This document shows positions 2,688-40,785 of a stretch of DNA of 64,000 nt, piece by piece. The position numbers and the translations under genes are program-made. The notes below the pieces were generated by a model. It was not told the origin of the DNA. It saw nothing but the letters and a program-made list of their open reading frames with translations, and made no database searches. Source of the DNA: Armatimonadota bacterium (GTDB taxonomy: Bacteria; Armatimonadota; Zipacnadia; Zipacnadales; JABUFB01); contig JABUFB010000007.1 in assembly GCA_013314775.1 (NCBI GenBank), positions 1 to 64,000 on the forward strand, given 5' to 3'. Within the stretch, counting starts at the first letter, position 1, and every line of letters begins with the position of its first letter.

Positions 2688-5600
2688 CTATCCGACCCGC
2701 TTGCGCAGGATGATCTTCGGTGACTCGCGCACGGCATCGAACCGCGCACAGAGGGCGTCGGAGTACGGGCTTTCGGCCGCCGCCTCTCCGTTGATCCTCG
2801 CGACCACAAGCCGGTGCTTTGGCTGGAAATCGCGCTCCAGCAGATTCGCGAGCGGCGCCAGGCAATCCTGCATTGCCGGGCTGTCGGGGGGGATAGTGAA
2901 ACTCAGGTCTGCCCCGTCTCGCTGAATAACAAGCGCTCTCCGGGAGCCCACATACACGATCCAGTTTCCGGGGACACGCCTTGGTAGACCGTGTTTGAGC
3001 GGTTCCAGAGCGGTTCCGCAGAGAGAGACGGGATCGCAAGCGTTGATCCACCAGACAGCATGGCGCGGGAGATCCCGCTGGAGCTTTCGCAGGGCGGCAG
3101 GGGTAGCGAATTGCGGTCCCGGAATGCCCTCGAAGAAACTGCCGCCCACGATCTCCCCGGAGAGCTCCATCAGCCGCAGGGCCCGAAACACCGCGGGCCA
3201 GCGGAACAGCGGCCCCTCATGCACCAGGAGCTCGCGGAAGACGACGCCGTAGCGCTCCAGCAGCAGGCGCGCCCGGTCTTTCGCGCGCTCTTCCTCTTCC
3301 AGTAACCCTTCGCCTCTGGGCGGATCGGGCAGGCGGAACCAGCTTCCGGCATACAGCGCGGCGCCGGCGGAACGAGGGCGGCGAGCGAAGCCGCGCCGTC
3401 CCCGTCTCGGCTGAGGCTCCGATACGCTCGCCGTCGTGTGCCGGAACCCGCAGGCGATGCCCCGGCGCAGACTGGCCACGGTGTCATTGGTAAGGAAGCC
3501 GCTCCACACCGCCGTCCAGAGAACATCAGCCAGGCGCTCGGGCCCAATATCCGTCCGCGTCTCCAGGGCGCGCAATGTATACCGGGCGTCCGGGTCCTGG
3601 AAGAGCTCGCGCAGTTCATCAGGCATTCTTCGTGCGGTGTGTGCGCGTGTCAATTCCAGGTCATCTGCGAGACAGAAAGCCACCTTCTGTCGGGCTCCCC
3701 CGATCCACAGCAGTTGTCCCTCGTTCATCAACCCGTCCAGCAGAGCCGGGCGGTAGTCCCGGACACGCGCGGGGAGGATGGCCTCCTCCCAGAGCTCGGC
3801 TCGAGCCTCAAACCCGCTCAACTGCTCCAGCGTCGCCCAGACCTCATCTGCGCCCTCGCCTGGTGTGCACAGACCCTGGTTGAGGGCCAGGAACAGTGCA
3901 AGATCCTCCGCGGGAAGAGGCTCGAAAGCGGGAACTGCCTCGGCCCGGGCCATGCGCAGCAGCGTCTCGAAGTTCGCGCTGTCGCAGATGTCATTGGCGG
4001 GGCCATTACGTACCAGCAGTCCGTCGATGACAGCCTCCGAGTCGATGAGGTCCTCGACGCATTCGGCCACCCGCTCCGGGTCCAGGCCCAGGGTTCTGCC
4101 GATGAGGTCGGGGTTCACCGGACCGAAGAAGCCCAACCACTCGCCGAGCACGGCCAGCAGTCGTTCGTCATCGGGGCCGGGGTGCTGGGTGATCGCGGGC
4201 GCGGGACCATCCCCCGCAATCGGCCGCGCAGCGACACCGGGTCCCCAGATAGGCAGGACGCGGCGCAGATCCTCCACGGCCGCCACGAGTTCCGTCTCGG
4301 AGCCGGGCGGTCGCAGCCACACCAGCTTGCCCTTGGCGTCGTTGAGCAGCGCATTCGGGTCCGCGCCCAGGTCTCGCTTCACCGCCGCCAGCAAATCTGC
4401 CCACTCGCTCTCCGGGATCAGGACGCGCTCCTTGGCCCAGTCCACGATGTCGCGCGCGGTCTGGGGAGCGTACCCGGGCGCGAGGCGCTTGCGCTTGCTC
4501 TCGAACCTCGCCACGAGTTCGGGCGTGATCGTGGGTCGCAGCGAGGGCGAGAAGACTACTTCGCGCAACAGGTCGCTGCGAAGTTGGGATTGGGTGCGTC
4601 CCGTGGGGGTGTCATCGGCGTACATGTACTGGTTGGTCTGGCGCCAGCTCAGTACGCCGGCGAAGGGACTCAGGTGCTCGGTGCGAACCTCGGCCCAGGT
4701 AGTGACGCCACTCTCCAGCTCCTCAAGCCGTTCCTGCAGCCCCTCCATGTCGAACTCGTCCTGCAGGCAAGTTCGCCAGGCTTCGAGCAGGATCGGGAAA
4801 TCCTCGTAGTCCAGCACCGCTTCGAGGAGTGCTTTCGCACGCAGGCGCGTAACCCACAGCGGCATACGCTGGTTCATCTTGTGGCGGGTGATGAGCAATG
4901 CGCGCCCGGCACATTCCCGGAAGCGCGCTCCAAAGAACCCCGAGCCCTCCACGGACTTGCGGAGCAGTTCGTTCAGCCGCGCGCGGGTTACGAGAGACAG
5001 GACCTCGGCGCTGTCCACATCCTCGGTCGTCACGATGTCCACCACGTCATTGGACGGGTACACCTCAGGCCTCACGCCGAACCGTTCCTTCCAAGCCTGC
5101 GCGAGGGCCATGGCGAAGGGTCTGTTGATCGTCCCACCCCAGAAGTTGTGGATGCAGATCTGACTGCCCGGCACATTTCCCGGGCCGGCCGCGATGTGTT
5201 CGACCACAATCTGGTGGCGGTGCGGCAGAACACCTGCGCAGAAGGTCTTCTGCAGCCGCAGGTAGGACAGCAGATCGTGGGCGGAATCCGCGTCCAGGCA
5301 GTGACGCTGCATCAATTCGCGCGCGAACTCCGGGTCGTCCAGGCGGTTCTCGGCACTCTCAAGGAACTCGGCGATCCGGGTGGTGAAGTGGGTGTCGCGG
5401 CCCCATTCCTCGCCCCTCCAGAAGGGGGCGTCTTCCGCGGAGCGCCCGGTCGGGGTCACGAACACGTCATTGTGGGTAATGCGCTCGATGCGCCAGGCTT
5501 GAGCGGCGAAGGCCATCGCCTGCCCTGGCGCTGCTTCCCACACGAACTCTTCATCCAGTTCCCCGATGAGCGCATTGGTGCGCTGGTCGCGCAGGTGAAG

Positions 5601-7124
5601 ATAGCCGCGATCCGGGATAGTGCCGCCGGAGATGTACAGGTCCTGCAGCGCACCGGGACGGGCCGCAACGGTATTGTCGATGCGGTCCACCGACAGCCTC
5701 GCGGTGAGCCCTCGGATGCGAGTCTCCTCATACCGCCCCGACAGCATGTCCAGCACGAGATCGAACTGCCGGCGGGTGATGTTGTGGAAGGGGTAGCTGC
5801 GGCGTATCTCGGCGAACAATTCGTCAATGTCCCAGGTCTCCAGGCCGGTCATGGAGATGAGCACCTGGGCCAGCACGTCGAGAGGTCCCTGAACAGGCCG
5901 TATGGGCTCGATATCCTGGTCGAGAATACTGCGCGCAAGCACTGCCGCTTCCAGCAGGTCGTGGGAGTGAGTAGGGAAGAGGGTAGCTCGGCTGACTTCG
6001 CCCACCTGGTGCCCGGCTCTGCCCACGCGCTGGATTGCCGACGAAATTCTTGGGGGCGATTGCACCAGCACCACTTCGTCCAGGCTGCCGATGTCGATGC
6101 CCATTTCCAGCGAACTGGTGGCCACGATGGCCCTGAGTTCACCGGCCTTCAGACGCCGCTCCACTTCGGTGCGAATCTCCCGAGACAGTGAACCGTGGTG
6201 GGCGTAGGCCAGGAGTTCCTTCTGCCCGTCGTTCATCTTCCAGGTCATGTTCTCGGCAACGCGCCGGGAGTTGGCGAACACCAGGGTGGAGCGGTTCCGG
6301 CGGGCGATCTCGCGACACTCCTGGACTATCGGGGACCACACCGGGTCTTCTTCCACGTGCCCCGCGGCGCCCTTGAGCATCCGCACCCGCACGTCGTATT
6401 CCTTTTGCGATCGGCCGCGCAGGATGTGGACCGGACGTGGCTCGTAAGCGCCGCTCTCCAGCAGGCGGTACCCACCGACATATTGGGCGACAAGCTCCAG
6501 TGGCCGCACCGTGGCGGACAGGGCGATGCGTTGGAACTCGCCGCTCAGTCGCACAAGACGCTCCACGCCGCTGATGAGATGCACCCCGCGTTTGGAGTCC
6601 ACGACGCCGTGGATCTCGTCGAGAATCACTGTGCGCAGGGAGCCCAGGATTGAGATGCCGCCGCGGGAACTCAGGAGCAGGTTGAGGCTCTCGGGGGTGG
6701 TGATGAGGATCTCCGGCGGGTGCCGGACCATGCGCCGCCGGTCCTCAGTGGGAGTGTCTCCGCTGCGGGTGAGCGCCCGTAGGCGCGGGAACTGCACCCC
6801 CTCACGCTTGAACAGACGGCGCAATTCGCCAAGTGGCTCTTCCAGGTTCCGCCGGATGTCATTGTTCAGCGCCTTCAATGGTGAGATGTACAGGACGCTG
6901 CACTGGCCCTCGGGGTAGTCGCCCGTGATGAGCTGGTTGAGTGCCCAGAGAAAGGCGGTCAGCGTCTTCCCGCTCCCGGTGGGCGCGGTGACGAGAACGT
7001 GCTCTCCAGAGGCAATCAAGGGCCACGCCTCGGTCTGCACATCGGTAGGCGTGCCGATGCGCTCCCGGAACCACCGGGCAATGAGGGGGTGGAACAGCGA
7101 GAGGCTTTCCGACGGGTCGTTCAT
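2688..7124 (-). CDS. lhr: Lhr-type ATP-dependent helicase
   Basis: The 1478-residue protein is close in length to E. coli Lhr (1538). Superfamily 2 helicase motifs are visible in order: Q-motif region with PTDVQTEAWP, Walker A TAPTGSGKT (about 46-54), LDEIHGV as motif II, LSATVRP as motif III, and QRVGRAGHQ as motif VI. The long C-terminal half, with a winged-helix region and the Lhr-specific beta-rich domain, is intact to the end. The family acts in DNA repair as a 3'-5' ssDNA translocase. The gene lies between two secreted hydrolases, 26 bp and 40 bp away on the same strand, which is unusual company. A long open frame on the opposite strand (about 3.4-6.2 kb) is a shadow of this GC-rich gene. 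Confidence 0.94.
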   Translation of the reverse strand: MNDPSESLSLFHPLIARWFRERIGTPTDVQTEAWPLIASGEHVLVTAPTGSGKTLTAFLWALNQLITGDYPEGQCSVLYISPLKALNNDIRRNLEEPLGELRRLFKREGVQFPRLRALTRSGDTPTEDRRRMVRHPPEILITTPESLNLLLSSRGGISILGSLRTVILDEIHGVVDSKRGVHLISGVERLVRLSGEFQRIALSATVRPLELVAQYVGGYRLLESGAYEPRPVHILRGRSQKEYDVRVRMLKGAAGHVEEDPVWSPIVQECREIARRNRSTLVFANSRRVAENMTWKMNDGQKELLAYAHHGSLSREIRTEVERRLKAGELRAIVATSSLEMGIDIGSLDEVVLVQSPPRISSAIQRVGRAGHQVGEVSRATLFPTHSHDLLEAAVLARSILDQDIEPIRPVQGPLDVLAQVLISMTGLETWDIDELFAEIRRSYPFHNITRRQFDLVLDMLSGRYEETRIRGLTARLSVDRIDNTVAARPGALQDLYISGGTIPDRGYLHLRDQRTNALIGELDEEFVWEAAPGQAMAFAAQAWRIERITHNDVFVTPTGRSAEDAPFWRGEEWGRDTHFTTRIAEFLESAENRLDDPEFARELMQRHCLDADSAHDLLSYLRLQKTFCAGVLPHRHQIVVEHIAAGPGNVPGSQICIHNFWGGTINRPFAMALAQAWKERFGVRPEVYPSNDVVDIVTTEDVDSAEVLSLVTRARLNELLRKSVEGSGFFGARFRECAGRALLITRHKMNQRMPLWVTRLRAKALLEAVLDYEDFPILLEAWRTCLQDEFDMEGLQERLEELESGVTTWAEVRTEHLSPFAGVLSWRQTNQYMYADDTPTGRTQSQLRSDLLREVVFSPSLRPTITPELVARFESKRKRLAPGYAPQTARDIVDWAKERVLIPESEWADLLAAVKRDLGADPNALLNDAKGKLVWLRPPGSETELVAAVEDLRRVLPIWGPGVAARPIAGDGPAPAITQHPGPDDERLLAVLGEWLGFFGPVNPDLIGRTLGLDPERVAECVEDLIDSEAVIDGLLVRNGPANDICDSANFETLLRMARAEAVPAFEPLPAEDLALFLALNQGLCTPGEGADEVWATLEQLSGFEARAELWEEAILPARVRDYRPALLDGLMNEGQLLWIGGARQKVAFCLADDLELTRAHTARRMPDELRELFQDPDARYTLRALETRTDIGPERLADVLWTAVWSGFLTNDTVASLRRGIACGFRHTTASVSEPQPRRGRRGFARRPRSAGAALYAGSWFRLPDPPRGEGLLEEEERAKDRARLLLERYGVVFRELLVHEGPLFRWPAVFRALRLMELSGEIVGGSFFEGIPGPQFATPAALRKLQRDLPRHAVWWINACDPVSLCGTALEPLKHGLPRRVPGNWIVYVGSRRALVIQRDGADLSFTIPPDSPAMQDCLAPLANLLERDFQPKHRLVVARINGEAAAESPYSDALCARFDAVRESPKIILRKRVG

Positions 7125-7150: not shown

Positions 7151-10100
7151 TTACTCGTGGGCGATGAGCAGCCAGCCCTTGCCCGGTTCGAAGGGTATCG
7201 CATCCGTTGGTTGGAACTCCGCGGGGCCCTGGAAATGCTGGATGGCGGGAGCGGTCAGCTTCGCTTTCGCCGGGTCGAGGCCCAGCGCCTGCCAGTCAAT
7301 CTGCAGCCGGACCTTTGGCATGTCCGCCGCTCTGGGCTCCTCCGTGCTCTGGCGGGTGGATGGCGTGCCAACCGAAAGCGTCAGCCTGCCGAACTGTTCC
7401 GGATCATGGAATGACCCTCCCACCGGCGCCCAGCAAGACAGAGACTTGCTCGGGGTCTGCTGATCGCGGCAGATGTTGATGCCGATGGTCGTGCCCTCCT
7501 CCGGGGCGTTCATCCCCAGCGAGCGCCAGGGGATGCCGGCCTCCGCCTCCCAGCCACCCTCGCCCGCAGATGCCGCGTACTGCCAATCGCCGTCCCAGTC
7601 GTCTCCGCCGAGGCCCTTTCCATCGTAGAACGTGCCCGCGCAGTTGCCCACCAGTTGGTAGTAGACCTGCCGGTCCGGGTCGGGCTGGATGAACAGCTCG
7701 ATGGCGTCATCCTCCCACACACTGCCGTCGCGCTGCGTCACTTTGGCCAGCGGCCGGAAACCCTCAGGCAGGCTGCACCGGAAGGCCAGGTACAGGCGCT
7801 CGGAATCCCACGCGGCGTATGCTTCCGTCTGCAGCCGTGCGCGCTCGTCCTGATTGAGGATTGTGAACCCGGTCATGCGGGCCGCGCGGTCCCACTCTCC
7901 GGGGGAGAGACGCCCGTCCACTACAGGCGCGCTCGCAGCGGCCTGGGCAATGGCTCCCGGCCTCGGGCGCTCGGTGGGCCAGTGCGCCAGGGCGATGAGC
8001 GTCTGCCCTGGCTTGCGGTAGACGGTTGCGAGCACATCCGCGCGGTCTGTTCGCACCGGGCAATTGGACGACCAGTACCCGAGCCAGTCGGCGTCCTGGA
8101 TGCCGAAGTCGTCCCAGAACCGCCACATGTGGGTGCAGGAAGGGTGCAACCTGCCGGTCATGCCATAGATCATGCCGCGATAAGGGTTGCCACCCGTTTG
8201 GTATTCGAGCATCTCGCTTGTCAGCCCGAAGGGGATGCCGCTGATCTCCACAAACCAGTAGTCCGGCGCGCGATTGTAGTCGTACATCTCTCCGAACCAC
8301 AGGTTGCTGATGTAAGGGAAGTGCTCCATGTAGGAGTTTGCCGGGCTGGTGTGGCGGTCCATGAAATCATAGTTGTTGCCGCTGTGGAAGTTGATGCGGT
8401 AGTCGGGATTGGTGGCGTGCATCACCTTCGCAATGCGTTTCATAATTTCACGGTCGTAACCGATCCCGTCGAGGTACAGTCCGTCGATGCCCGTCTCCTG
8501 CATGAGCCAGCGCATGCCCTCGACGTAATAGTTGTGCCACCGGGACAGGCCCTGGGTGGCGATTGCGGCGTCGTGCTGGCCGTCCCAAAGGGGCTGCCGC
8601 CACCCGGGCACGTAGCCTGCGACCAGGTGCTCCTGAAGCCACGGATAGCCGCCTCCAGGAGTGCCGAACATGGTCTTCTCCACCGAGTAGATGAAAGCGG
8701 AGCGCGTCTGGAAGACCTCGTCGCCAAGGCTGCGCAGGGGCCACATTTCGGCCACGTAGTTGCTCAGTTCGCGCACCGTATAGTAGAGATTTACGCCGTT
8801 CTTTGCGCCTTCGATGATCCGGGATGAGAAGACGACCTGCTGTCCCGTGTCACTCGGCGACAGTTCAACCACTCCCTTGAACTGGCCGGGCTCATTGCCG
8901 GCGCTCACCTGCGGGCGTGTGGAGGCAGTGTCTGTGTTCTCGAAGGTGTCCAGCAGCAATGTATGCTCATCGGCGGCAAACTGCACCATCTGGCCTTCGG
9001 AGTATGGCGCGTCACTCACCTTGATGGCGTCCACGGCGAAGCCCGAACCCCGGAGGCGCAGAACCGCGCCGTCGAGGGGCGTCTGGAGCGTGCCCCTGTA
9101 TGGCGCCGAACCTTTGAGCTTCCCATCCACGAACACGGCCAGCGTATCGCCCCAGGAAAGGGTCAGTGTATGCTGCTGGCCCTGCTCCCAGTCTGGCGAG
9201 TGGGTCCCGAAGAGCACCGGGTATCGGTTGAGCTCCGGCGCTCCCTGGCGGATGTAGGCCCGCATCCCGCGGTCATCCACGTTCCAGTAGAAGCCCACCT
9301 GGTCCTGGTTGGGCCAGTCAAGGCCGAACAGGCTCTGATTGAACCGGGCTTGTCGGGGCTCGCCCGAATGCGGGTCGAAGTTCAATGTGACCCGCAAGTG
9401 CAGGGACCCGCGGTCAGGATTGATGTTCCCCGGTGCGGGGTAGGTCAGGGAGCCTTCGTCGGTTCGTTTGACCGTGCTCTTCACTCGGTCAACCGTGTCC
9501 TTTAGACGCTGCCACTCGATGAACGGGTAGTTGATATACGGATTCTCGCGGGTGGCATGGTGAATGTGCAGGATGTTGCCGTCGCCGTTCACATCACCAT
9601 AGCGCCAGTTCCAGTGCCGCTTGTCCAGGGGCTTGAAAGGTGTGATGAGCAGGCGGAAACGGAACTCAAGCTCGTCGCCGGATGCCAAAGTGCGCGCCCC
9701 GGTGTAAGCGCGCACCATCACGGTGTCGCCCTCTTCAGTAATATCGCACCCGCCCTTGCCGCCGTTGCTCCAAGATTCAGGCAAGCCGCTGTCCACAAGA
9801 CTGATAACATCCCAGACATCCCGCGGGCCCTGCAGGTACAGCTGGACTCCCCCGTCGGCATCCCCGAGCCAGACCTGATTGTCCGCACGCTCGATGTCCC
9901 ACTTCCAGCGGTGCGACTGCGGCCTGTACCCGCCGCGTCGCCCGAAGCCCATCATGTACCGGGCGACCTCGCGCTTCAGCGGGATCTCCAGGCGCACATC
10001 GGACAGGTCGATCTCCCGCTCTGCCTTCATCCGCACCCGGTACTGAATGCAGCCGTCGGCCTCCATCGCACAATCGACGGTTGTGGCGGTCTGCGGGGAA

Positions 10101-11473
10101 AGGACTCGGGTCACTCGCCGAACCATCCCCGGAGCCTTGCTCACGGTCCGGCTTTCCGATTTGCCGCCCGAGGCTGTTCCACCCGGGCTGTCGGCGACGA
10201 GACGGACGGGTGCGGCGAGGATGTCGCGCCCCTTGCTGATAATGCTTTCGGGCAGCCCGCTTGGCCCGAACCGGACTTCGCGCTGCAAGCAGCGGATGGT
10301 GTCGCCTTCAACCTCCAGCGGAGTGTACGGGGGGATCACTTCCTCATCCAGGCCAAGGCGGGAGTTGAGCCATTTGAGCCGCGACATCCGCCACAGCTCG
10401 TTCACGCCACCGTCCGCGAGCACCGGGCCGGCAACGTCAATCTGCACAGCGACATCGCAGGGCGGAGCGCCCTCGGGACGGATCGTGAAGGTGCCACGGT
10501 AGCTGCCGTCTGCGTCCTGCGGGATCTGGACGCCGAACCACAATGCACGCACTTGACCCTGGGCGACGGAGAAGTCCCGGCGCATCGGACGGCCCAGCCA
10601 ATCGCGTCCGGACAGGTTGAAACACGTGATCTGGCTTCGGGAGATACGCTTGCCATCGGCGGTAGATAGAACCGGGAGCTCCACATCCAGGCCGGGAACT
10701 GCCTGTCGCGCCGCCCAGACACCCACCTGGAAGACGTAGTACTCGCCCGGCTGGGCAGTGCCCTGGAATGAAGTGGAAGGACCGCTCTCCGCCCACTTCA
10801 GCGGGATGTCTTCGAACATCCGGATGGGGTACTTCCGGTCTTCCGGGAAGAGCAGGTAGCGCTCGTTCGGGTGGGCCGCGAGCACCGCCTCGGTCTCGGC
10901 GCGAGTGGCAATGACCTCCATCGGGTCCATTCGGTGGAACTCGCCTCGCGCCTCAATGCGCAGGACCTCGGCACGGGGAAGCGACCGCCAGTCGCCTTTC
11001 TCCAGCGCCTGAGGCGACAGCCCGTTACGGGCAATCCAGTCGGCTTCGGCCGTCTCTTCCGGCTCGAAGTACGTGCCGGGGTCGTCGAAGTTCCCGGTAC
11101 CCGGGTTGTACGGAAGGTAGTACACCGCGTATTCCCCGGGGACCGTTGCCGGCTGGAAAATCAGATCGCCGGACTCGCGCTCGACCCGGACGCAGACGCG
11201 GTTCAGCACGCGTTGGCCGGTTGTCAGGTCCACGATGCGGATGTCCTTACGCTCGGGGTTCTGGTCCCGTCGCCGCCACTGGATCTGGGCGCGGACAGCG
11301 TCGGCCTTCTCGTTCACCCGCAGGACCGCGCGGTGGTTGCCCTGTCCGCGCTCTTCCCACTGGCCCACACCGTAGGGCAGGCCAGCGGCGAGAGCGGCGC
11401 CGGCAAGGCCCGCAGCAAACAACACGCAGGCGAGAGCACCCCTGATGGTGAAGGTGAGCCCGGCGTTTTCCAT
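7151..11473 (-). CDS. Large secreted multidomain hydrolase (DUF6067/GH123-like, LamG-like and CBM9-like domains)
   Basis: The chosen start is ATG 11473, which follows GAGGTG; a GTG three codons upstream is also open. The product is 1440 residues with a signal peptide (about 1-29, ending GAALAAG). Beta-rich domains fill residues 30-600. About 620-825 is a LamG-like jelly roll (VDDRGMRAYIRQG, VFVDGKLKGS). About 900-1170 is a TIM-barrel-like region containing GTPGGGYPWLQ, GIDGLYLDGIGYDRE, NFHSGNNYDF and YMEHFPYISNLWFGE, typical of DUF6067 glycosidase-like proteins. About 1185-1360 resembles a CBM9 cellulose/xylan-binding domain (VDGRLSPGEWDRA, YAAWDSERLYLAF). It is probably an extracellular polysaccharide-degrading enzyme. 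The gene sits between the Gfo/Idh oxidoreductase (55 bp upstream) and the helicase. Confidence 0.85.
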   Translation of the reverse strand: MENAGLTFTIRGALACVLFAAGLAGAALAAGLPYGVGQWEERGQGNHRAVLRVNEKADAVRAQIQWRRRDQNPERKDIRIVDLTTGQRVLNRVCVRVERESGDLIFQPATVPGEYAVYYLPYNPGTGNFDDPGTYFEPEETAEADWIARNGLSPQALEKGDWRSLPRAEVLRIEARGEFHRMDPMEVIATRAETEAVLAAHPNERYLLFPEDRKYPIRMFEDIPLKWAESGPSTSFQGTAQPGEYYVFQVGVWAARQAVPGLDVELPVLSTADGKRISRSQITCFNLSGRDWLGRPMRRDFSVAQGQVRALWFGVQIPQDADGSYRGTFTIRPEGAPPCDVAVQIDVAGPVLADGGVNELWRMSRLKWLNSRLGLDEEVIPPYTPLEVEGDTIRCLQREVRFGPSGLPESIISKGRDILAAPVRLVADSPGGTASGGKSESRTVSKAPGMVRRVTRVLSPQTATTVDCAMEADGCIQYRVRMKAEREIDLSDVRLEIPLKREVARYMMGFGRRGGYRPQSHRWKWDIERADNQVWLGDADGGVQLYLQGPRDVWDVISLVDSGLPESWSNGGKGGCDITEEGDTVMVRAYTGARTLASGDELEFRFRLLITPFKPLDKRHWNWRYGDVNGDGNILHIHHATRENPYINYPFIEWQRLKDTVDRVKSTVKRTDEGSLTYPAPGNINPDRGSLHLRVTLNFDPHSGEPRQARFNQSLFGLDWPNQDQVGFYWNVDDRGMRAYIRQGAPELNRYPVLFGTHSPDWEQGQQHTLTLSWGDTLAVFVDGKLKGSAPYRGTLQTPLDGAVLRLRGSGFAVDAIKVSDAPYSEGQMVQFAADEHTLLLDTFENTDTASTRPQVSAGNEPGQFKGVVELSPSDTGQQVVFSSRIIEGAKNGVNLYYTVRELSNYVAEMWPLRSLGDEVFQTRSAFIYSVEKTMFGTPGGGYPWLQEHLVAGYVPGWRQPLWDGQHDAAIATQGLSRWHNYYVEGMRWLMQETGIDGLYLDGIGYDREIMKRIAKVMHATNPDYRINFHSGNNYDFMDRHTSPANSYMEHFPYISNLWFGEMYDYNRAPDYWFVEISGIPFGLTSEMLEYQTGGNPYRGMIYGMTGRLHPSCTHMWRFWDDFGIQDADWLGYWSSNCPVRTDRADVLATVYRKPGQTLIALAHWPTERPRPGAIAQAAASAPVVDGRLSPGEWDRAARMTGFTILNQDERARLQTEAYAAWDSERLYLAFRCSLPEGFRPLAKVTQRDGSVWEDDAIELFIQPDPDRQVYYQLVGNCAGTFYDGKGLGGDDWDGDWQYAASAGEGGWEAEAGIPWRSLGMNAPEEGTTIGINICRDQQTPSKSLSCWAPVGGSFHDPEQFGRLTLSVGTPSTRQSTEEPRAADMPKVRLQIDWQALGLDPAKAKLTAPAIQHFQGPAEFQPTDAIPFEPGKGWLLIAHE

Positions 11474-11528
11474 GGCAGGCACCTCGTAACCGTCCGGGTT
11501 GTCGACGCGTCGCGTCCGGCGTCAGGCG

Positions 11529-16799: not shown

Positions 16800-19700
16800 T
16801 CAGGTGCCGACCTGGGCGTCGCCCAGGAAGTCGTGGCTGATGCGGTTCTGGATAGCCCCGATCTGTGCGAAGGCCTGGTTCAGCAGAGTCATATCAAGCT
16901 GGCTGATGCGGCGGTAGCTGATGAGATTGTCCAGCGGCTGCCCGGCATCGTGGTCGGCGGCCTGCTGTTTCAAGCGCAGTCGAGTGAGTTGTTCCCAGGC
17001 GGTTGCCGTCTCGTCTCGGCTGGCTTCGGTCAGGACCCCTGCCTGTTGCAGCGCGTCCAGCCGGTCCAGGGTGTGGGTCTTGTCGAGGCGGTGTCGCAAG
17101 GCATAGAGCCGGGCGAAGCTCACGAGGGGAATGAGCGCGTCCTTGAGATTGATCTGCCCGGCCTGATCCACCCCGCCGCCGGAGAGAATTCGGCCGAAAA
17201 TCCTCATGGGCGGCTTGTACTGCAGGGCGTTCTGGGCAAGGTGCATGAGGAACGCGGGGTTCGTCGACAGCTCCTCATACACGTGAGCGCGCAGTTCAGC
17301 CGCCAGTTCGGAAGCTCCGGACACAGGGCGCAGATCGAAGAAGATGCTGAACTCCAGGGCCTGCTGGGCTTCTCCGCCGCGGATCCACTCGCTGAAATAC
17401 CCCTTCCAGACGTCCAGCGGCTTGCACCAGCGGGGGTTCTGGGCCATCACTTCGCCCTTGCAGTACGGATACCCGGCGCGATCCAGCCAGCCGCAGACGA
17501 GACTGCCCATCTGCTGGAAGTACTCCGCAACCGCCGGGTCATCTCCGGCCTCGGCAGCATAGATGATGGCGTTATCCTGGTCGCTGGACAGCACCTGTTC
17601 CTGGCGTCCCTGGCTGCCCAGGGCCAGGAAAACGTAGGGCGCCGGCGGCGGCCCGAGCCGGTCGCATGCGAAGGCGATGAAACGTTCGCAGGCGGCGTCA
17701 CACACAGAGGTGAGCATTCGGGTGACCCGGTCCGGGTGCGCGCCGCTCTCCAGGAGTGACCGGGCGAACCCGGGAGCGCGCCTGCATGCGGTCACGACCT
17801 CCTCCACCCGGCTCGCCCGCGATACCTCCGCCGCCAAAACCAGCGGTCCGTAGCTCGGGTACTGGAGGAGCTCTTGCCCGCGCACGACACCGGTGGCTCG
17901 CCCGCTGTCATCAACGACTACGAGATGGTGCACGCCGGCTCGGTCGATGAGCGCCAGGGCCTCGCAAATCTCCGCGTTCGCAAGCACCGTGATCAGGGGA
18001 GAGCTCATGAACCGGTAGACAGGTGCGTCCAGGTCGGCTCCAGCGGCCACAACTCGCTCGCGCAGATCGCGGTCGGTGAAGATGCCCATGACTTCACCGG
18101 ACTGCGCCCGAACCAGCACTGCACCGGTGTCAGCGGAAGACATCATGTAGGCAACGGTGCGAACCGGGGTATCCAGGTCGCAGAAGACCGCGCCGTGTTC
18201 CGCCTGCCCCACTGGTTCGTGCAGGAAGAGCATAGAGCCCTGCAGCCGGTTGATCAGGTGTTCTCTCTCCGCTTCCCGGCGGGCCTCGACGGTGACGTCC
18301 TCAATGACGGCGTCCACGTACTTGCCCTGCCCGCGGTGGCCCTTTACGAGCACCGCGCGCAGGCTCAGGACGCGCCCGGTCAGGTCACTCCCAGACAGGT
18401 GCAGCTGAATCTCACCCTTGCCGTCTCGCAACAATCCCGCCAGGAACTGCCCGTAGGCCGTCGCGTCCGGGAACAGGTCGGACAGGGCGTAGCCCTGAGT
18501 CTGGGAGCTCTCGGCATACCCCAGCAGCCTTCGAGCCGAGGCGCTCGCGCTGATGACCGTGCCCTTGCTCGTCGCGAGAGCCCGCAGCAGTCCCGCCGGC
18601 AGGGCTTCGGAGACCGCGCCGTGTTGCCGGTCGCCGGCAGGTCCTGGATCAGTGCCCTCCGGCAGTAGCACTCCAACGGGCTTCGCAAGGAGAATGAGGC
18701 CGCCGCGCGCGGCGAAGGGAATCCGGCTGAGGCCCAGGGCGCAATCGACAAGCGATCCATCACGGCGCTGGAGGGTCCCGTCGAAGCCCTCCGGCGATTC
18801 GCGCCCTTCGAGGAGATCCCCGATGCGCTGCCATGCCTGTTCATTCTCACGAATGCGCGGCAGGACGTCCTCCAGGTCCAGCAGTTCAAGCTCCGCAGCC
18901 GTGCATCCTATCAGGTCGAGCAGCATGGGGTTGGCGTATCGGCATCGACCTGACAGCACCAGGAGCGTTCCCTCGGTAGTGGCCTCCACCAGGGACTGGT
19001 AGCGCCGGGTGGATTCCCGCAGACTCTCTTCGGCGTCCCGACGCTCGCGCTCGATGCGCAGGCTTTGTCTGAGCACATACAAGAGCAGGAAGGCGACCAT
19101 TGCGGAGATACCCAGAGAAGTGAGCAGGAGGCTGCGCTCTACCCGCGCAATCTCCCGGCTCACATCCTCCGTGTACAGGCCGGTCCCGATGATCCAGCCC
19201 CAGGGCTGGAAACCCCGGACGTAGGACTCCTTTGGCTCCAGGCGAGTGGGGTCGTCCTTCCACTGCCAGACATAGTCCACGTACCCCTCCTGTCGCTGGC
19301 GGACGACCTCTGCGAACTCCTTGAAGATGCGATTTCCCCGGGCGTCTCTGAAGTCCGACACATCAGCGCCGTTCAGGTCTTTGCGGTACGGGTGCATGAT
19401 CATGCGCGGGTGCATGTCTTGCAGCCAGAAGTAATCCTTTCCTTCAGGACCATACCGCAGTTTCTCGATGCGGGAGATCGCCATTTCCTGGGCTTGCTTG
19501 TGGGTGAGACGCCCGGCCTGCACTTCCTGCTCGTATCCGGCGAGAATACTCCACGCGGAGTTGGTCAGCTCACGGATCATTTCGCGCTTGCGGTCCATCA
19601 AGGATCTCTCAAAGGCCGGCAGGAAGACGGCGTTCAGGGCCACCGCGAACAGCGTAATTGCAAGAAGGGTGGGGACCACAACGTGGAAGAAAATGTGACG

Positions 19701-20492
19701 ACGCCTCAGACCAACATGCCCGGGCGCGGCCGGTTGTTCGTGCGTCAGGGAGCTCACGCTGCATACAGCATCACGGAATGCTTTCCAGGCTCCGGTAGGC
19801 ATATCCACGCCAAACGACCTGCCGCCTCCGGTCCTGGCCTCGTGCGCATCGCTCCCGCCGCTGACCAGCAGCCCCATTTCGGTCGCAATCGCTGCAAGCT
19901 CTTCCCGCAGAGCTTCGGGATAGGGACCGTAATAGGCCTCAATGCCGTCGAGCCCCCACTCCTTCAGGCGCTCCAGGACTTCACGGAGGTGTTGGACATC
20001 GGGGATCGTGGTGAGCGGGTGCGCCAGGAATGCCTTGCCCCCGGCCCGGTGGACGAGGGCGATGGCGTCTTCCGTGGAGATCCTCCCGCCGGGGGCGGCC
20101 GTATCTGCGGATACGGCCGCCTCTCCTGCCCGGGGAGCCGCGCCTCTGCCGCGAATCGACCCCTCGACACTGCCGGCCGCGGGCGCCTGGAACTGGCGCA
20201 GGGAAGCGAGGGTGGCGCGCAGTTCGGGGTGGTCCGGGTCAAACCCGTATGCGAGGAGGTGGGTCTCACTGCCGTTCAGGCGCGTGGTGATCTCAACGGC
20301 GTTGATGACACCGATGCCTCTGTCGGAGACTGCCTGGCGGAAGGTGTCAAGGCCCTCCAGTGTATCGTGATCCGCGAGAGCCGCGAATTCCACCCGGTGC
20401 GCTGCGAGTCGGCGTGCGAGCTCCCGCGGCGCAAGCGTGCCGTCGCTGTAGATCGAGTGACAGTGGAAGTCTACCCGCGTGGTTTCATTCAT
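16800..20492 (-). CDS. Membrane sensor fusion: PHP, Cache, PAS, CBS pair and DUF294 nucleotidyltransferase
   Basis: This 1230-residue protein starts at ATG 20492 (ATG 20507 is possible). A complete PHP phosphoesterase domain (~6-245) has DFHCHSIYSDG, ALADHDT, FLAHP and GGSDAHEA, with its metal-binding His/Asp residues present. A membrane helix (~269-291), an extracytoplasmic single Cache domain (YGPEGKDYFWLQD, GNRIFKEF, PWGWIIGTGLY) and a second helix (~455-475) follow. Two PAS-like domains occupy ~490-770, a CBS pair ~778-890 (VMGIFTDRDLR, GVHHLVVVDDSG), and a DUF294 GlnD-like nucleotidyltransferase starts near 955 (ALGSQGRQEQ, SSDQDNAII), with the DUF294 C-terminal helical domain after it. 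The Cache-to-DUF294 part suggests signal-dependent nucleotidyl transfer. Fusion to an N-terminal PHP domain is odd. The gene is separated from the acetate symporter by a terminator. Confidence 0.88.
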   Translation of the reverse strand: MNETTRVDFHCHSIYSDGTLAPRELARRLAAHRVEFAALADHDTLEGLDTFRQAVSDRGIGVINAVEITTRLNGSETHLLAYGFDPDHPELRATLASLRQFQAPAAGSVEGSIRGRGAAPRAGEAAVSADTAAPGGRISTEDAIALVHRAGGKAFLAHPLTTIPDVQHLREVLERLKEWGLDGIEAYYGPYPEALREELAAIATEMGLLVSGGSDAHEARTGGGRSFGVDMPTGAWKAFRDAVCSVSSLTHEQPAAPGHVGLRRRHIFFHVVVPTLLAITLFAVALNAVFLPAFERSLMDRKREMIRELTNSAWSILAGYEQEVQAGRLTHKQAQEMAISRIEKLRYGPEGKDYFWLQDMHPRMIMHPYRKDLNGADVSDFRDARGNRIFKEFAEVVRQRQEGYVDYVWQWKDDPTRLEPKESYVRGFQPWGWIIGTGLYTEDVSREIARVERSLLLTSLGISAMVAFLLLYVLRQSLRIERERRDAEESLRESTRRYQSLVEATTEGTLLVLSGRCRYANPMLLDLIGCTAAELELLDLEDVLPRIRENEQAWQRIGDLLEGRESPEGFDGTLQRRDGSLVDCALGLSRIPFAARGGLILLAKPVGVLLPEGTDPGPAGDRQHGAVSEALPAGLLRALATSKGTVISASASARRLLGYAESSQTQGYALSDLFPDATAYGQFLAGLLRDGKGEIQLHLSGSDLTGRVLSLRAVLVKGHRGQGKYVDAVIEDVTVEARREAEREHLINRLQGSMLFLHEPVGQAEHGAVFCDLDTPVRTVAYMMSSADTGAVLVRAQSGEVMGIFTDRDLRERVVAAGADLDAPVYRFMSSPLITVLANAEICEALALIDRAGVHHLVVVDDSGRATGVVRGQELLQYPSYGPLVLAAEVSRASRVEEVVTACRRAPGFARSLLESGAHPDRVTRMLTSVCDAACERFIAFACDRLGPPPAPYVFLALGSQGRQEQVLSSDQDNAIIYAAEAGDDPAVAEYFQQMGSLVCGWLDRAGYPYCKGEVMAQNPRWCKPLDVWKGYFSEWIRGGEAQQALEFSIFFDLRPVSGASELAAELRAHVYEELSTNPAFLMHLAQNALQYKPPMRIFGRILSGGGVDQAGQINLKDALIPLVSFARLYALRHRLDKTHTLDRLDALQQAGVLTEASRDETATAWEQLTRLRLKQQAADHDAGQPLDNLISYRRISQLDMTLLNQAFAQIGAIQNRISHDFLGDAQVGT

Positions 20493-20599
20493 GCCCCGTA
20501 GGTGCATGTTCTTCGGGATCTATCCACATCAGCCTGAAGGCCGGGACGCCTTGAGCCAGGGAACATTTCGGCTTGGGCCGGGCGCAATCCTGCCCGCAG

Positions 20600-20631
20600 A
20601 AAAGTACGGCGGCCTTGCGGGGCCGCCGTAC
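20600..20631 (-). terminator. Rho-independent terminator after the acetate symporter genes
   Basis: A perfect 11-bp inverted repeat (GTACGGCGGCC at 20604-20614 and its complement at 20621-20631) encloses a six-base loop. Read on the minus strand it is followed by TTTT (20603-20600). It lies 27 bp beyond the symporter stop and before the sensor gene. Confidence 0.85.
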
Positions 20632-20657
20632 TGAGGCAGATCGCAGGTAGAACAGGA

Positions 20658-22253
20658 TCAGCCGGCCGCGGCCTTGTCACCCTTGGGGTCATGGAGGCGG
20701 TGAAAGGACTGCTCCAGATTCGCGCGGGTCTCCTCCGCCGTCCCGGCCCAGGTGGCCCTGGACACGAGGAAGATGGCAAGAAACGCCGCAGGCACACTGA
20801 TCAGCGCGGGCTGCTCGAAGGCCCACAGTCCCGCGAGTTTGCCAATGACGACAACCGAAGAGATGAGCCCGCCAGTCATGATCCCCGCATACGCGCCCTG
20901 CTCAGTCATTCTGCGCCACCAGATTCCGCAGGTCAGAAGCGGGAAAAACGTGCTGGCGGCCACCGCGAAAGCCAGGCCCACCATCCAGGCAACGTTCGCA
21001 TCGCGGAAGCCGATGCCGACGAAGATCGCCAGCGCACCACAGACGAGCACAGCGATTTTCGCCGCGAGGATCTTCTGACCGTCCGTGGCGTTTGGGCGCA
21101 GGATCGTGCCGTAGAAGTCGTGAGCGAAGGCGGAGCTCAGCGCAATCAGCAGTCCAGACACCGTGGAGAGCAGCGCGGCGATTGCGCCCGCCGCGACAAG
21201 GGCGACGGCCCATTCACCCGCTTCCTTGCTGGTCACGAGCATCATTGAGTTGGGGTTCGGCTCTCCAGCGTCGTTCAGGAGCACCGCCTCGGGACCAAGC
21301 ACCATGCGCGCGAAAGCCCCCCACATCGGGGTCGTGATGTAGAAAATCCCAATGAATATCAGCACCCAGACCGTTGACCATCTCGCTTTGGCCGCGTCCG
21401 GGTTGGTGTAGAAACGTGCGAGGATGTGCGGCAGACCAGCCGTCCCACAGACCAGCGCGATCAGCAACGAGACGCTGGAGAAGAGATTGAACTTATTGAA
21501 AGGCATGAGCCATGCGCGACCGTTGGGAAACTTCTCCTTCTCCTTTTCGGAGAAGGCCGGGTTCCCTCTGACGGTGGTCCCTGCCATGTTGTCAGTCGAG
21601 TCTGAAACGATGGCCGTGTCACCGTACGCATGGGTCAACAGTTCCGGATACGGATGCCGCGCGAGCAACACCATGAGCGGGACAACCATCGCAAACAGCA
21701 TGATCCAGAATTGGATCATCTGGGTGATTGTTACGCCCGTCATTCCGCCGAAGGCCACGTAGAGGGTGATGACACCGCCGAGCAGGACTACACCCAGAGC
21801 CCACGGCAGCCCGGTCACCGATTCCATGAGCGTTCCGACGCCCACCATCTGCGCGATGATGTAAACCGCGGAGATGACAACGGTCCAGAAGATTCCAATG
21901 CGTCGCAGGCGTACGGAGTTGAAGCGCCCGGCGCAGAAGTCAGGAATCGTGTACTGCCCGAACCGCCGCAGCGGGCTGGCGATGAAGAGGAGCAGCAGAA
22001 TGTAGCCGGCTGCAAAACCCGTGGCATACCAGACACCGTCGAAACCGTTCGCCCAGACGAACGCTGCAACGCCGAGGAAGGACGCGGCACTCAGGTAGTT
22101 GCTCGAAATCGCGGACGCATTGGTGAACACGCCCACGCTGCGACCGGCCACCCAGTAGTCACTCAGGGTCTTGGCCTTGCGAGCGGACATCAGTCCGATG
22201 ATGATTGTGGCCGCGAGAACGATAATGGTTGCGATCAGGGGAAGACTACTCAC
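20658..22253 (-). CDS. actP: Sodium:solute symporter, acetate permease-like
   Basis: The 531-residue integral membrane protein has about 13 hydrophobic helices of the SSS family. Diagnostic segments are LSDYWVAGRSVG, FTNASAISSNYLSAASFLG, RFGQYTIPDF and YVAFGGMTGVTITQMIQFW, which match the ActP/acetate-glycolate branch. It would import short-chain monocarboxylates with sodium. The GTG start at 22253 overlaps the end of the small DUF485 gene by eight bases, so translation is probably coupled. This mirrors the E. coli yjcH-actP arrangement, but no acs gene is next to it here. The symbol follows family and context; the substrate is inferred. Confidence 0.87.
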   Translation of the reverse strand: MSSLPLIATIIVLAATIIIGLMSARKAKTLSDYWVAGRSVGVFTNASAISSNYLSAASFLGVAAFVWANGFDGVWYATGFAAGYILLLLFIASPLRRFGQYTIPDFCAGRFNSVRLRRIGIFWTVVISAVYIIAQMVGVGTLMESVTGLPWALGVVLLGGVITLYVAFGGMTGVTITQMIQFWIMLFAMVVPLMVLLARHPYPELLTHAYGDTAIVSDSTDNMAGTTVRGNPAFSEKEKEKFPNGRAWLMPFNKFNLFSSVSLLIALVCGTAGLPHILARFYTNPDAAKARWSTVWVLIFIGIFYITTPMWGAFARMVLGPEAVLLNDAGEPNPNSMMLVTSKEAGEWAVALVAAGAIAALLSTVSGLLIALSSAFAHDFYGTILRPNATDGQKILAAKIAVLVCGALAIFVGIGFRDANVAWMVGLAFAVAASTFFPLLTCGIWWRRMTEQGAYAGIMTGGLISSVVVIGKLAGLWAFEQPALISVPAAFLAIFLVSRATWAGTAEETRANLEQSFHRLHDPKGDKAAAG

Positions 22254-29017: not shown

Positions 29018-31282
29018 ATGAAGATCATCGAGTCCATGCCCTTCGCCGCCGAACTGCTCTCGCCGACCTATGCCGAATCATTCCGCCGGGAGGATGTCGT
29101 TGCCGGGCCGGGCGAAGTGACCCTTGACGCCGAATGGGCGCTGAGCCTGTCCGACACCAGCGAGACCACCCAGGTGGCGGCAGACCATTTCGCGCAGTTT
29201 GTGGCGCAGTCTGTTGGTGGGGAACTGACTTGCTGTGGGGCTCGCAGGCGCATTCTCCTCGATGTGGACGCTGCGCTGGACAGCAATCCGGAGACCCACC
29301 GAATCCGTGTGTCACCGGAGGGCATTGAGGTTACGGGCGCGGGTCCTGCAGGCGTATTGCAGGGCGTATTCCGCCTGGAGAACCTCATGCGCGAGCGCGG
29401 CGGGCCGATCCTGCCCGTCTGCGAGGAGACCCGCAAGCCCCTGTTCAAGCACCGCATTCACCGCTCGCCCCTGTCGCCTTTCTACGTGGACGAGTTCACC
29501 GGATACGGCGGGGACCCGTTCAATGCCGAATGGATCAGCCCCGGCATGGACTACCCGGGATACAGGGAAGAGGACGCCGGGCCCGAGATCTTCTACCACG
29601 ACAATATGCTTATGCGTCTTGCGGAACACGGGTTCAACGGCATCTGGATCCGCGGCAGCTTCCGGCACTTCGCCCGAAACAGCGCGATCCCCGAGTTCGG
29701 CGCGAACTCCGACGAGATCTTGGGCAAACTCAACGGCGTCTGCAAGCGAGCCGCGCGCTACGGTATCCGGGTTTTCCTGTACCTCAATGAGCCGCTGGGG
29801 ATGCGAGAGGATGACGAGTTCTTCAAGCTTTATCCCCAGTGTCGTGGCGCGGCGTCCACGTACAAGCCCATGGTGAACCTGTGCACCAGTACGCCGGAGA
29901 TCAAGACATACCTGAGGGAATCCTCGCGGGATATCTTCACCCGTGTGCCCGACCTCGCCGGATTCGTGATGATCACCGCCTCCGAGTACCCCAGCCACTG
30001 CTGGTGCCGAACCGGGATTAACCCCGAGAACCCCCAGGAGCGGTTCGGCGAGGTATCCGGATGCCCCCGGTGCAGTCAGCGGACCCCGCAGGATACGGTG
30101 GGCGAACTGGTGCGACTCATCCGTGATGGCGCGAAGTCCGTGAAGCCCGAGGCTGAGATCATCGCGTGGAACTGGAGCTGGGCCATGTGGGAACCGGACC
30201 CGCAGGAGGGCGTGCTCGCGGCGCTGCCCGAGGACACCATCGTCATGGGTGACTACGAGCGCGGCGAACCCGCCGAGGCCTGCGGCATCCCGTACACCAA
30301 CGACGAGTACAACATCAAGGTGGTCGGTCCCAGCCAGAGGTTCCGCGGTGTTGCGGATTTCATGCTGTCGCGCAACCGCCCCCTGTATGCGCGCATCCAG
30401 ATCGGCACCACCCATGAAAACCCGGATATCCCCTATCTGCCGGTGCCCCACAAGATCGGGCAGAAGTACGTGACGCTGCGCGAGACCGGCGTCTCCGGCC
30501 TGATGACCTGCTGGAACTTCGGCAACATGCCGTCCCTGGCCACTGAGGTCGCCGGGCAGTTCAGCTTCGCCCCACAGCCGGACACGGTGGAAGACGGAAT
30601 CCGCGCCATTGCGGTGCGCAACTTCGGCCCGGATGCGGCGGATGATGTGGTGGCCGCGTGGGCGATTCTCGCAAAGGCCCACGACGATTTCCCGGGAAGC
30701 ATCCCGGTCATGTATAACGGGCCGATCAGCCGCGGACCGGCCTTCTGGTTCGTCTTCGACCAGGTGAACAAGAAGTTCCCGAATTCCTGGCTGCTGGACA
30801 AGGACGTGGAAGGCGATTTGCTCAACTGGTGCTCGCCTTTCACCCCGGAGCAGGTGCTCATGTGTTACCGTTCCGAAGTGGAGAAGGCGCAAGAAGCTCT
30901 GCGGCTGTTCGACAGCGCCCTGGCGAAGGCGAAGGGAGAGGACCTGCGGCGGTTGCAGCGCGAAGTCGGGGTAGCGAAGTTTCACCTCCTGCAAACCCAA
31001 AGTGCCGCGAACGTACTGGACTTCCTGCTGACCCGCAACGCCTTTTACGCCAGCGAGGATGTCTCGGAGAAGCGGGCATTGCTGGATCGCATGGAAGAGA
31101 TCTGCCGCGATGAGCTGACTGTTGCGCCGACATCGATCCCCCTCATGGAAGCCGACCCGCGCCTGGGCTGGCATGGCGAAGCATACGGGTACATGATCAG
31201 TCCCGATCTGGTGCGCGAGAAGCTGGCGCGGCTCCAGCACATCGTGGACGAGCGCATTCCTCAGGCCCGCGAGGCGCTGTGA
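29018..31282 (+). CDS. Glycoside hydrolase-like protein (GH20/GH67-type architecture)
   Basis: The 754-residue protein starts at ATG 29018 after GAGGAG and has no signal peptide. Residues ~20-125 resemble the zincin-like N-terminal domain of GH20/GH67 enzymes (HRIRVSPEGIEVTGAGPAG, GVLQGVFRLENLM). A TIM barrel follows (~140-490) with YGIRVFLYLNEP, FVMITASEYPSHCWC, a Cys-rich loop (GCPRCSQRTP) and IIAWNWSWAMWEP. The last ~250 residues are helical. A hexosaminidase or alpha-glucuronidase activity is suggested by fold only. The cysteine pairs in the barrel loop (CWC, CPRC) could bind a metal. It ends the four-gene plus-strand group. Confidence 0.8.
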   Translation: MKIIESMPFAAELLSPTYAESFRREDVVAGPGEVTLDAEWALSLSDTSETTQVAADHFAQFVAQSVGGELTCCGARRRILLDVDAALDSNPETHRIRVSPEGIEVTGAGPAGVLQGVFRLENLMRERGGPILPVCEETRKPLFKHRIHRSPLSPFYVDEFTGYGGDPFNAEWISPGMDYPGYREEDAGPEIFYHDNMLMRLAEHGFNGIWIRGSFRHFARNSAIPEFGANSDEILGKLNGVCKRAARYGIRVFLYLNEPLGMREDDEFFKLYPQCRGAASTYKPMVNLCTSTPEIKTYLRESSRDIFTRVPDLAGFVMITASEYPSHCWCRTGINPENPQERFGEVSGCPRCSQRTPQDTVGELVRLIRDGAKSVKPEAEIIAWNWSWAMWEPDPQEGVLAALPEDTIVMGDYERGEPAEACGIPYTNDEYNIKVVGPSQRFRGVADFMLSRNRPLYARIQIGTTHENPDIPYLPVPHKIGQKYVTLRETGVSGLMTCWNFGNMPSLATEVAGQFSFAPQPDTVEDGIRAIAVRNFGPDAADDVVAAWAILAKAHDDFPGSIPVMYNGPISRGPAFWFVFDQVNKKFPNSWLLDKDVEGDLLNWCSPFTPEQVLMCYRSEVEKAQEALRLFDSALAKAKGEDLRRLQREVGVAKFHLLQTQSAANVLDFLLTRNAFYASEDVSEKRALLDRMEEICRDELTVAPTSIPLMEADPRLGWHGEAYGYMISPDLVREKLARLQHIVDERIPQAREAL

Positions 31283-40769: not shown

Positions 40770-40785
40770 AGCAATGGAGGCTGAC

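Follow-up and report, generated by a model that had tools for sequence, protein, structure and literature searches.

The roles of the uridylyltransferase (UTase) and HD domains of GlnD have been described (PMC4285133). A distinct protein, SidD, acts as the eraser that opposes the AMPylator DrrA/SidM (PMC12663964). DUF294_C has been related to the helical domain of GlnD and GlnE and to HEPN (PMC3710099). Pflu5625, a protein with cAMP-binding, CBS and nucleotidyltransferase (NTase) domains, belongs to the CrbS/R acetate regulon with ActP; its deletion gave no phenotype, and the authors repeat the prediction of protein nucleotidylation for it (PMC5715377). In our literature search, no assigned reaction for DUF294 was found. 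Here we analyzed a stretch of 64,000 nucleotides from an Armatimonadota bacterium (contig JABUFB010000007.1, positions 1 to 64,000; hereafter the window), in which one gene fuses a PHP phosphoesterase domain to a Cache-PAS-CBS-DUF294 protein. We propose, with a probability of roughly 0.5, that this fusion protein is a carboxylate-responsive writer-eraser nucleotidylylation switch in one polypeptide, the target, nucleotide, chemistry and erasure of which we infer.

The gene occupied a single unbroken minus-strand frame at 16800..20507, with 1235 aa counted from the first ATG. The initial annotation had chosen the start at 20492 (Met6, MNETTRV...), and this is the better one, as the translations of relatives show Met-x(2-3)-TRV there. 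The architecture it had read was borne out by the intact frame and by Pfam (Table 1). The matches comprised sCache_2 (residues 303-457, 5.9e-39), PAS (around 501-590 and 635-742), CBS (two, 5.6e-15), DUF294 (PF03445, residues 911-1045, 8.2e-43, 146 bits against a cut-off of 21) and DUF294_C (PF10335, residues 1084-1227, 5.3e-36, 124 bits against 22.5). The PHP match (residues 13-83, 1.2e-7) was above the cut-off and covered the first part of the domain only. Hydropathy showed that the Cache domain is bracketed by two hydrophobic segments, which suggests that the PHP part and the PAS-CBS-DUF294 part should both be cytoplasmic. The Pfam list of the protein contained no HD domain, no polymerase X domain and no second NTase domain beyond the one DUF294 match. 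The host genome (6.1 Mb) had a single DUF294 gene and nine PHP-family matches, the fusion protein included.

In an alignment of 78 rows (77 of 80 rows drawn at random from 154, plus the window), we surveyed the pol-beta NTase motif GSxxRxE...DxD and the third Asp. G, S, R and the third D were invariant, E and DQD were conserved in at least 90%, and all were present in the window protein. A sequence search for a solved DUF294 relative found none. The AlphaFold2 (AF2) model of DUF294/DUF294_C had a predicted local distance difference test (pLDDT) score of 93.4, and its nearest solved folds in Foldseek were the adenylyltransferase domain of DrrA and both halves of GlnE (TM about 0.6-0.7, 12-16% identity). 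Thus, the predicted NTase fold is closest to protein AMPylators/deAMPylase (DrrA, GlnE).

The PHP motifs reported in the initial annotation (HxH, ADHD, AHP and SDAH) were indeed intact. In the window protein they correspond to H15/H17 (HxH), D22, D46/H47 (DH), E72, H83, H163 (AHP) and D220/H222 (SDAH). RNase AM binds three metals through H13, D20, H45, E72, H83, H198, D255 and H257 (PMC9410882). All eight ligands aligned and were conserved in the fused PHP, plus the second His of HxH; the window protein has all of them, and they were complete in 40 of 41 full-length fused PHP domains. A profile of the 41 domains matched E. coli RNase AM (7ug9) over positions 4-210 of 245 (1.7e-41). The AF2 model (pLDDT 89.6) also had RNase AM 7ug9 as its top Foldseek match (5.2e-18), and the closest PHP structures were those of RNase AM and of an enzyme in complex with AMP and phosphate. 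The NCBIfam equivalog scores were below cut-off, with 108.5 of 375 bits for RNase RNM and 117.5 of 400 bits for nucleoside bisphosphate phosphatase. From these ligands, motifs and predicted folds, both the PHP and the NTase parts look active. In one case, L016 (and L023, an identical protein), two PHP ligands and one NTase Asp were lost together. L016/L023 is a second DUF294 fusion copy within one genome, and is possibly a regulatory pseudoenzyme.

The fusion had been thought unusual, and an assembly artefact at the join near 19.7 kb had been considered. We rejected such a chimera, as the same gene recurs in independent, unrelated assemblies. A search of 46 genomes of the host's class gave strong matches in 13 (the window's included). 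The 12 further genomes shared the domain order of the window gene at 50-62% identity, and on every contig of sufficient length a single frame ran from the start of PHP to the end of DUF294. Across the host phylum, the DUF294_C matches above 80 bits all belonged to frames about 1230-1350 aa long or came from fragments of contigs. We also collected 80 named loci as the best matches to a PHP-containing query, via two Cache-domain peptide patterns. PHP stood upstream of Cache at 42 of them, a share that is not a prevalence, and the frame was broken between PHP and the rest in two. The record titles of the PHP-fused loci named Armatimonadota, Chloroflexi, Verrucomicrobia, Spirochaetes, Cloacimonadota, Latescibacterota, Omnitrophota, Clostridia and Proteobacteria, although titles of metagenome-assembled genomes (MAGs) may be wrong for some. 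The PHP-DUF294 fusion is an old lineage across many phyla. Because the PHP rows need two changes on a 66-row tree, they are most simply explained by a single origin with later spread or loss.

The neighbourhoods of PHP-less relatives carry the stronger argument for a link between the two activities. We compared 68 Cache-type rows in which a single frame encoded Cache, DUF294 and DUF294_C; ten of these rows had less than 800 nt on one side. A PF00149 (calcineurin-like) or DnaQ-type gene lay within 300 nt of 23 of the 32 PHP-less genes and of none of the 36 PHP-fused genes (Fisher 3.5e-11, uncorrected for kinship). The background was very low: the Cache-type flanks (about 898 kb) held no further partner match except one split open reading frame (ORF) of a counted gene. 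A second set, of soluble cNMP-CBS-DUF294 genes, came from two other phyla by a domain search blind to neighbours (80 regions, 40 from 72 places and 40 from 52; 86 genes). Three genes cut by contig ends were dropped, and L181 and L187, whose contigs agree in length and coordinates with those of L043 and L045, were taken as the same loci as these two. Of the 57 genes of 560 aa or longer, 42 had DnaQ as an adjacent same-strand gene, against 3 of the 21 short genes; the whole of these regions (about 581 kb) held three other DnaQ matches. The partner was downstream in 43 of 48 adjacent pairs, and 46 of the 48 ORF pairs overlapped or were at most 66 nt apart, measured on stop-to-stop frames. Complete annotated plasmid records had a 3'-5' or DnaQ-type exonuclease in seven of eight regions. 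Family names of partners and soluble genes are based on Pfam runs on examples.

The partner type needs at least six changes on a 148-row tree (without L181, L187 and the three cut genes), where the minimum possible is four. One PHP-less row, L036, grouped with the PHP clade, with weak support (93/56), and it is adjoined by DnaQ. The initial annotation had also raised the case of PHP as a separate, unlinked gene. At no examined locus did a separate PHP gene adjoin; other phosphoesterases stood there instead, and a search with the PHP profile beside PHP-less loci picked up nothing except the N-terminal portions of fused genes, of which two had a broken frame. In sum, the independent events are few but agree with one another: the DUF294 NTase stays in the company of an enzyme that cleaves phosphodiesters, a role taken in the fusion by PHP. 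As partners occur beside PHP-less genes and none beside PHP-fused ones, there is good support for a functional link in the transferase-hydrolase pairing. The GlnD-like combination of transfer and hydrolysis suggested by the initial annotation thus gained support from architecture, motifs and neighbourhood; its view of the fusion as unusual did not hold, since the fusion recurs in many phyla.

The Cache domain aligned with 4k08 (6.9e-34) and 5g4y (3.5e-31). The 5g4y protein, PscD, binds glycolate, acetate, propionate and pyruvate through contacts that include Y90, W92, H103, Y143, W145 and K156 (PMC5062169). We compared these six of the paper's seven contacts, whose numbers are, by our count, shifted by 9 relative to the chain. 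They were identical in the window, in 40 of 40 PHP-fused rows (40 of the 42 PHP rows plus the window were aligned, the degenerate L023 and the partial L072 being left out) and in 31 of 32 PHP-less DUF294 rows. With all six kept, the domain appears to fit the C2/C3-carboxylate sensor type. The gene upstream of the fusion encodes a sodium:solute symporter, scoring 360.8 bits against TIGR03648 (VC_2705 family, cut-off 320.75). A symporter was found in the flanks of 31 of 42 PHP-fused loci, and at 5 of 14 loci of the host's class, where the flanks were only about 1.5 kb.

We considered how such a protein might work. The periplasmic sCache would bind a C2/C3 carboxylate (such as acetate, propionate or pyruvate), and the signal would be relayed via PAS and CBS, the latter probably reading adenine nucleotides, to DUF294/DUF294_C. 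This unit may then move a nucleotide, most likely AMP, onto a protein; candidate targets are the fusion protein itself, the adjacent symporter and enzymes that use carboxylates. PHP, at the N-terminus and on the same membrane face, would cleave that phosphodiester bond and reset the switch. In relatives the eraser would be a separate, tightly linked gene with a different fold, calcineurin-like for the Cache type and DnaQ-type for the soluble cNMP-CBS type. The architecture, the intact catalytic and ligand residues, the adjacency and the mutual exclusion of partners were seen directly, and both enzyme folds were predicted; from these we infer the chemistry, the target and the undoing of the transfer by the hydrolase. 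More broadly, and with slightly less than even confidence, we suggest that bacteria widely use a hitherto undescribed system of protein nucleotidylylation for carbon sources. DUF294 proteins would be its writers, nuclease-type phosphoesterases of unrelated folds (PHP, DnaQ and calcineurin-like) would have been recruited separately as erasers, and the PHP fusion would join sensor, writer and eraser in one chain.

The switch reading is favoured by the NTase fold nearest to AMPylators, the carboxylate pocket in 40/40 rows, the symporter flanks (31/42) and the partner exclusion. RNase Z, a nuclease, is a deAMPylase (PMC12663964), a precedent which shows that a nuclease can erase protein AMPylation. 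Several observations weigh on the other side. PHP needs two to three changes and MPE3 three on the trees, so that both are clustered phylogenetically and the partner exclusion rests on few independent events. No partner was detected for 9 of the 32 PHP-less Cache genes and 15 of the 57 long soluble genes. About 40 residues of the RNase AM insertion domain are missing from the profile alignment, the remainder being a short low-confidence linker, and the phosphate-binding Arg201 is absent (AHPGR in RNase AM, AHPLT in the window); because of both, the substrate of the fused PHP need not be RNA. In the window, a terminator-like hairpin parts the symporter from the fusion gene, and we therefore make no claim that the two are co-transcribed; a consensus terminator scan reported none there by its T criterion. 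The partner folds are those of nucleases or general phosphoesterases, for which a nucleic-acid or nucleotide substrate is equally natural as a protein. RNase T has the DnaQ-type exonuclease fold. RNase T and RNase E were inactive as deAMPylases, and RNase T left sodA-AMP intact (PMC12663964), which calls for caution in assuming that any nuclease fold deAMPylates.

Other explanations can be put forward. DUF294 might respond to carboxylate by making a small signal nucleotide, for instance a dinucleotide, with PHP, DnaQ and calcineurin-like enzymes degrading it as a synthase-hydrolase pair. The AMP- and phosphate-bound structure near PHP and the sub-threshold match to 3',5'-nucleoside bisphosphate phosphatase are consistent with this, as is the presence of CBS and cNMP domains, which read nucleotides. 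We consider it unlikely, since the folds closest to the NTase, those of DrrA and GlnE, belong to enzymes that modify proteins and have a helical substrate domain, and not to nucleotide cyclases. It is still less likely that DUF294 extends an RNA or DNA end and that the phosphoesterase then trims or proofreads this end, in the manner of the DnaQ, PHP and calcineurin-like subunits of DNA polymerases. Published work does describe the exonuclease subunit of Pol III, the PHP of PolX and DnaE1 and the Mre11-like site of PolD as proofreading nucleases, and PolX fuses PHP to a pol-beta-fold NTase (3au2 and relatives); Pfam, however, detected no nucleic-acid-binding domain in the fusion protein, and its membrane sensor architecture and a fold nearest to protein AMPylators also speak against such a role.

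There is a slim chance that PHP has an output of its own, such as the turnover of RNA 5' ends or of nucleotides, and has nothing but the sensor in common with the NTase without acting on its product. Its RNase AM-like core would suit this, and the two sites are only presumed to be coupled, but such an account leaves unexplained why unrelated phosphoesterases adjoin PHP-less and not PHP-fused DUF294 genes. That the whole pattern is neutral co-occurrence or artefact, through chimeric assembly or chance neighbourhood, is hardly credible. Most sequences do come from MAGs; yet the recurrence in the 12 other class genomes and at 42 named loci refutes it, and the very low partner background and the DnaQ pairing in complete plasmid records also speak against it.

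Some loci showed other neighbours. Three of the nine partnerless Cache genes had a convergent AP_endonuc_2-like TIM barrel. Such a gene was convergent, nearby or overlapping at L039, L040, L074 and L221 (Pfam on L074 and L221), all without MPE or DnaQ; inspection of the loci lacking both, by eye and partly with Pfam, revealed no other common alternative. A convergent dGTPase-like HD protein lay beside one Cache-DUF294 gene (L054:12906-14249, a single case). At L036:8990-14953, cNMP-CBS-DUF294 and Cache-PAS-CBS-DUF294 genes stood in tandem with a DnaQ-type ORF between them. In alphaproteobacterial plasmid loci (L105:6367-7235, L099 and L100), a small hypothetical protein was found between DUF294 and a large, N-terminally extended exonuclease gene, and in a Paracoccus plasmid locus of this kind a response regulator also lay between them.

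Table 1. Features of the fusion gene and its upstream region (window coordinates).
Feature	Position	Strand	Basis
Whole gene, PHP-TM-sCache-TM-PAS-PAS-CBS-DUF294-DUF294_C (TM, transmembrane segment)	16800..20492	minus	Met6 start by comparison with relatives; alternative ATG at 20507
PHP phosphoesterase domain, RNase AM-like core, all metal ligands	19758..20471	minus	Pfam, profile, AF2, Foldseek; ligands from PMC9410882
Transmembrane segment 1, residues about 271-290	19638..19697	minus	Hydropathy
sCache_2 sensor domain with C2/C3-carboxylate pocket residues	19137..19601	minus	Pfam; 4k08 and 5g4y matches; six contacts
Transmembrane segment 2, residues about 458-480	19068..19136	minus	Hydropathy
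PAS domain 1	18738..19007	minus	Pfam PAS/PAS_8
PAS domain 2	18282..18605	minus	Pfam PAS_9/PAS_4 (weak)
CBS pair	17859..18176	minus	Pfam; solved CBS chains
Predicted DUF294 nucleotidyltransferase, GSxGRxE...DQD (G964, D976, D978), third Asp D1058	17373..17777	minus	Pfam, conservation, AF2, Foldseek
DUF294_C, putative helical substrate-binding domain	16827..17258	minus	Pfam; genome search
Sodium:solute symporter, VC_2705 family, related to ActP/monocarboxylate transporters, upstream of the fusion	20658..22253	minus	Pfam SSF; NCBIfam TIGR03648
Perfect 12-bp inverted repeat, 6-nt loop, then TTT, terminator-like	20603..20632	minus	Between symporter and fusion gene

A phage or viral origin of the fusion was rejected, as no relative was found among viral contigs and phage records gave partial domain matches only. 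Identity as a defence system was dropped, since the protein matched 0 families among the PADLOC anti-phage defence models. An Rfam search of the window gave no RNA element match. Elsewhere in the window, two large ORFs (40774-45234, 1486 aa; 29018-31282, 754 aa) had no Pfam match at 1e-5, and a GH123-like glycoside hydrolase with CBM9 domains adjoined an Lhr-type helicase (7151-11482 and 2688-7124).

DUF294, PHP and sCache are each already known; what appears new, judged from the sequences, is a putative switch of the transferase-hydrolase kind in which both the hydrolase and the sensor are new. The PHP-DUF294 architecture is presumably listed by automatic domain databases. Our literature search, in which subscription papers were largely outside the scope, found no description of a PHP-DUF294 protein or of the partner exchange. 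DUF294 is common in bacteria, often beside acetate-type symporters, and one member is part of an acetate regulon already described. As a Rosetta-stone link, the fusion points to a candidate eraser, and with the exchange of eraser folds a vague DUF294 annotation becomes a testable claim.

Among described proteins, E. coli RNase AM (YciV) and C. violaceum CV1693 share the PHP core and all metal ligands with the fused PHP, which differs in lacking Arg201 and the insertion domain and falls far under the NCBIfam equivalog cut-offs. PolX likewise has a pol-beta-fold NTase and PHP in one chain; however, its PHP is C-terminal, not N-terminal as in the fusion, the DNA-binding parts, sensors and domain order differ, and the PHP similarity is weak (1.8e-5). 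The Pflu5625 type resembles the cNMP-CBS-DUF294 relatives with an adjacent exonuclease, and has a soluble cNMP sensor and separate DnaQ where the fusion has a membrane Cache-PAS and fused PHP. GlnE and DrrA are the nearest solved folds to the DUF294/DUF294_C model, and GlnE also pairs opposite activities. The identity to them is 12-16%, though, the fusion has one NTase domain against two in GlnE, and its candidate eraser is of another fold and fused. GlnD is alike in combining a pol-beta-fold NTase with a separate hydrolase domain in one polypeptide under small-molecule control, and offers a precedent for the architecture. Its hydrolase is HD and its signal glutamine, whereas the hydrolase of the fusion is PHP; GlnD is also not known to have a membrane sensor, PAS or CBS. 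If the switch reading is true, the fusion would be a carbon-source counterpart of the GlnD/GlnE nitrogen switch, and would add three new candidate eraser folds.

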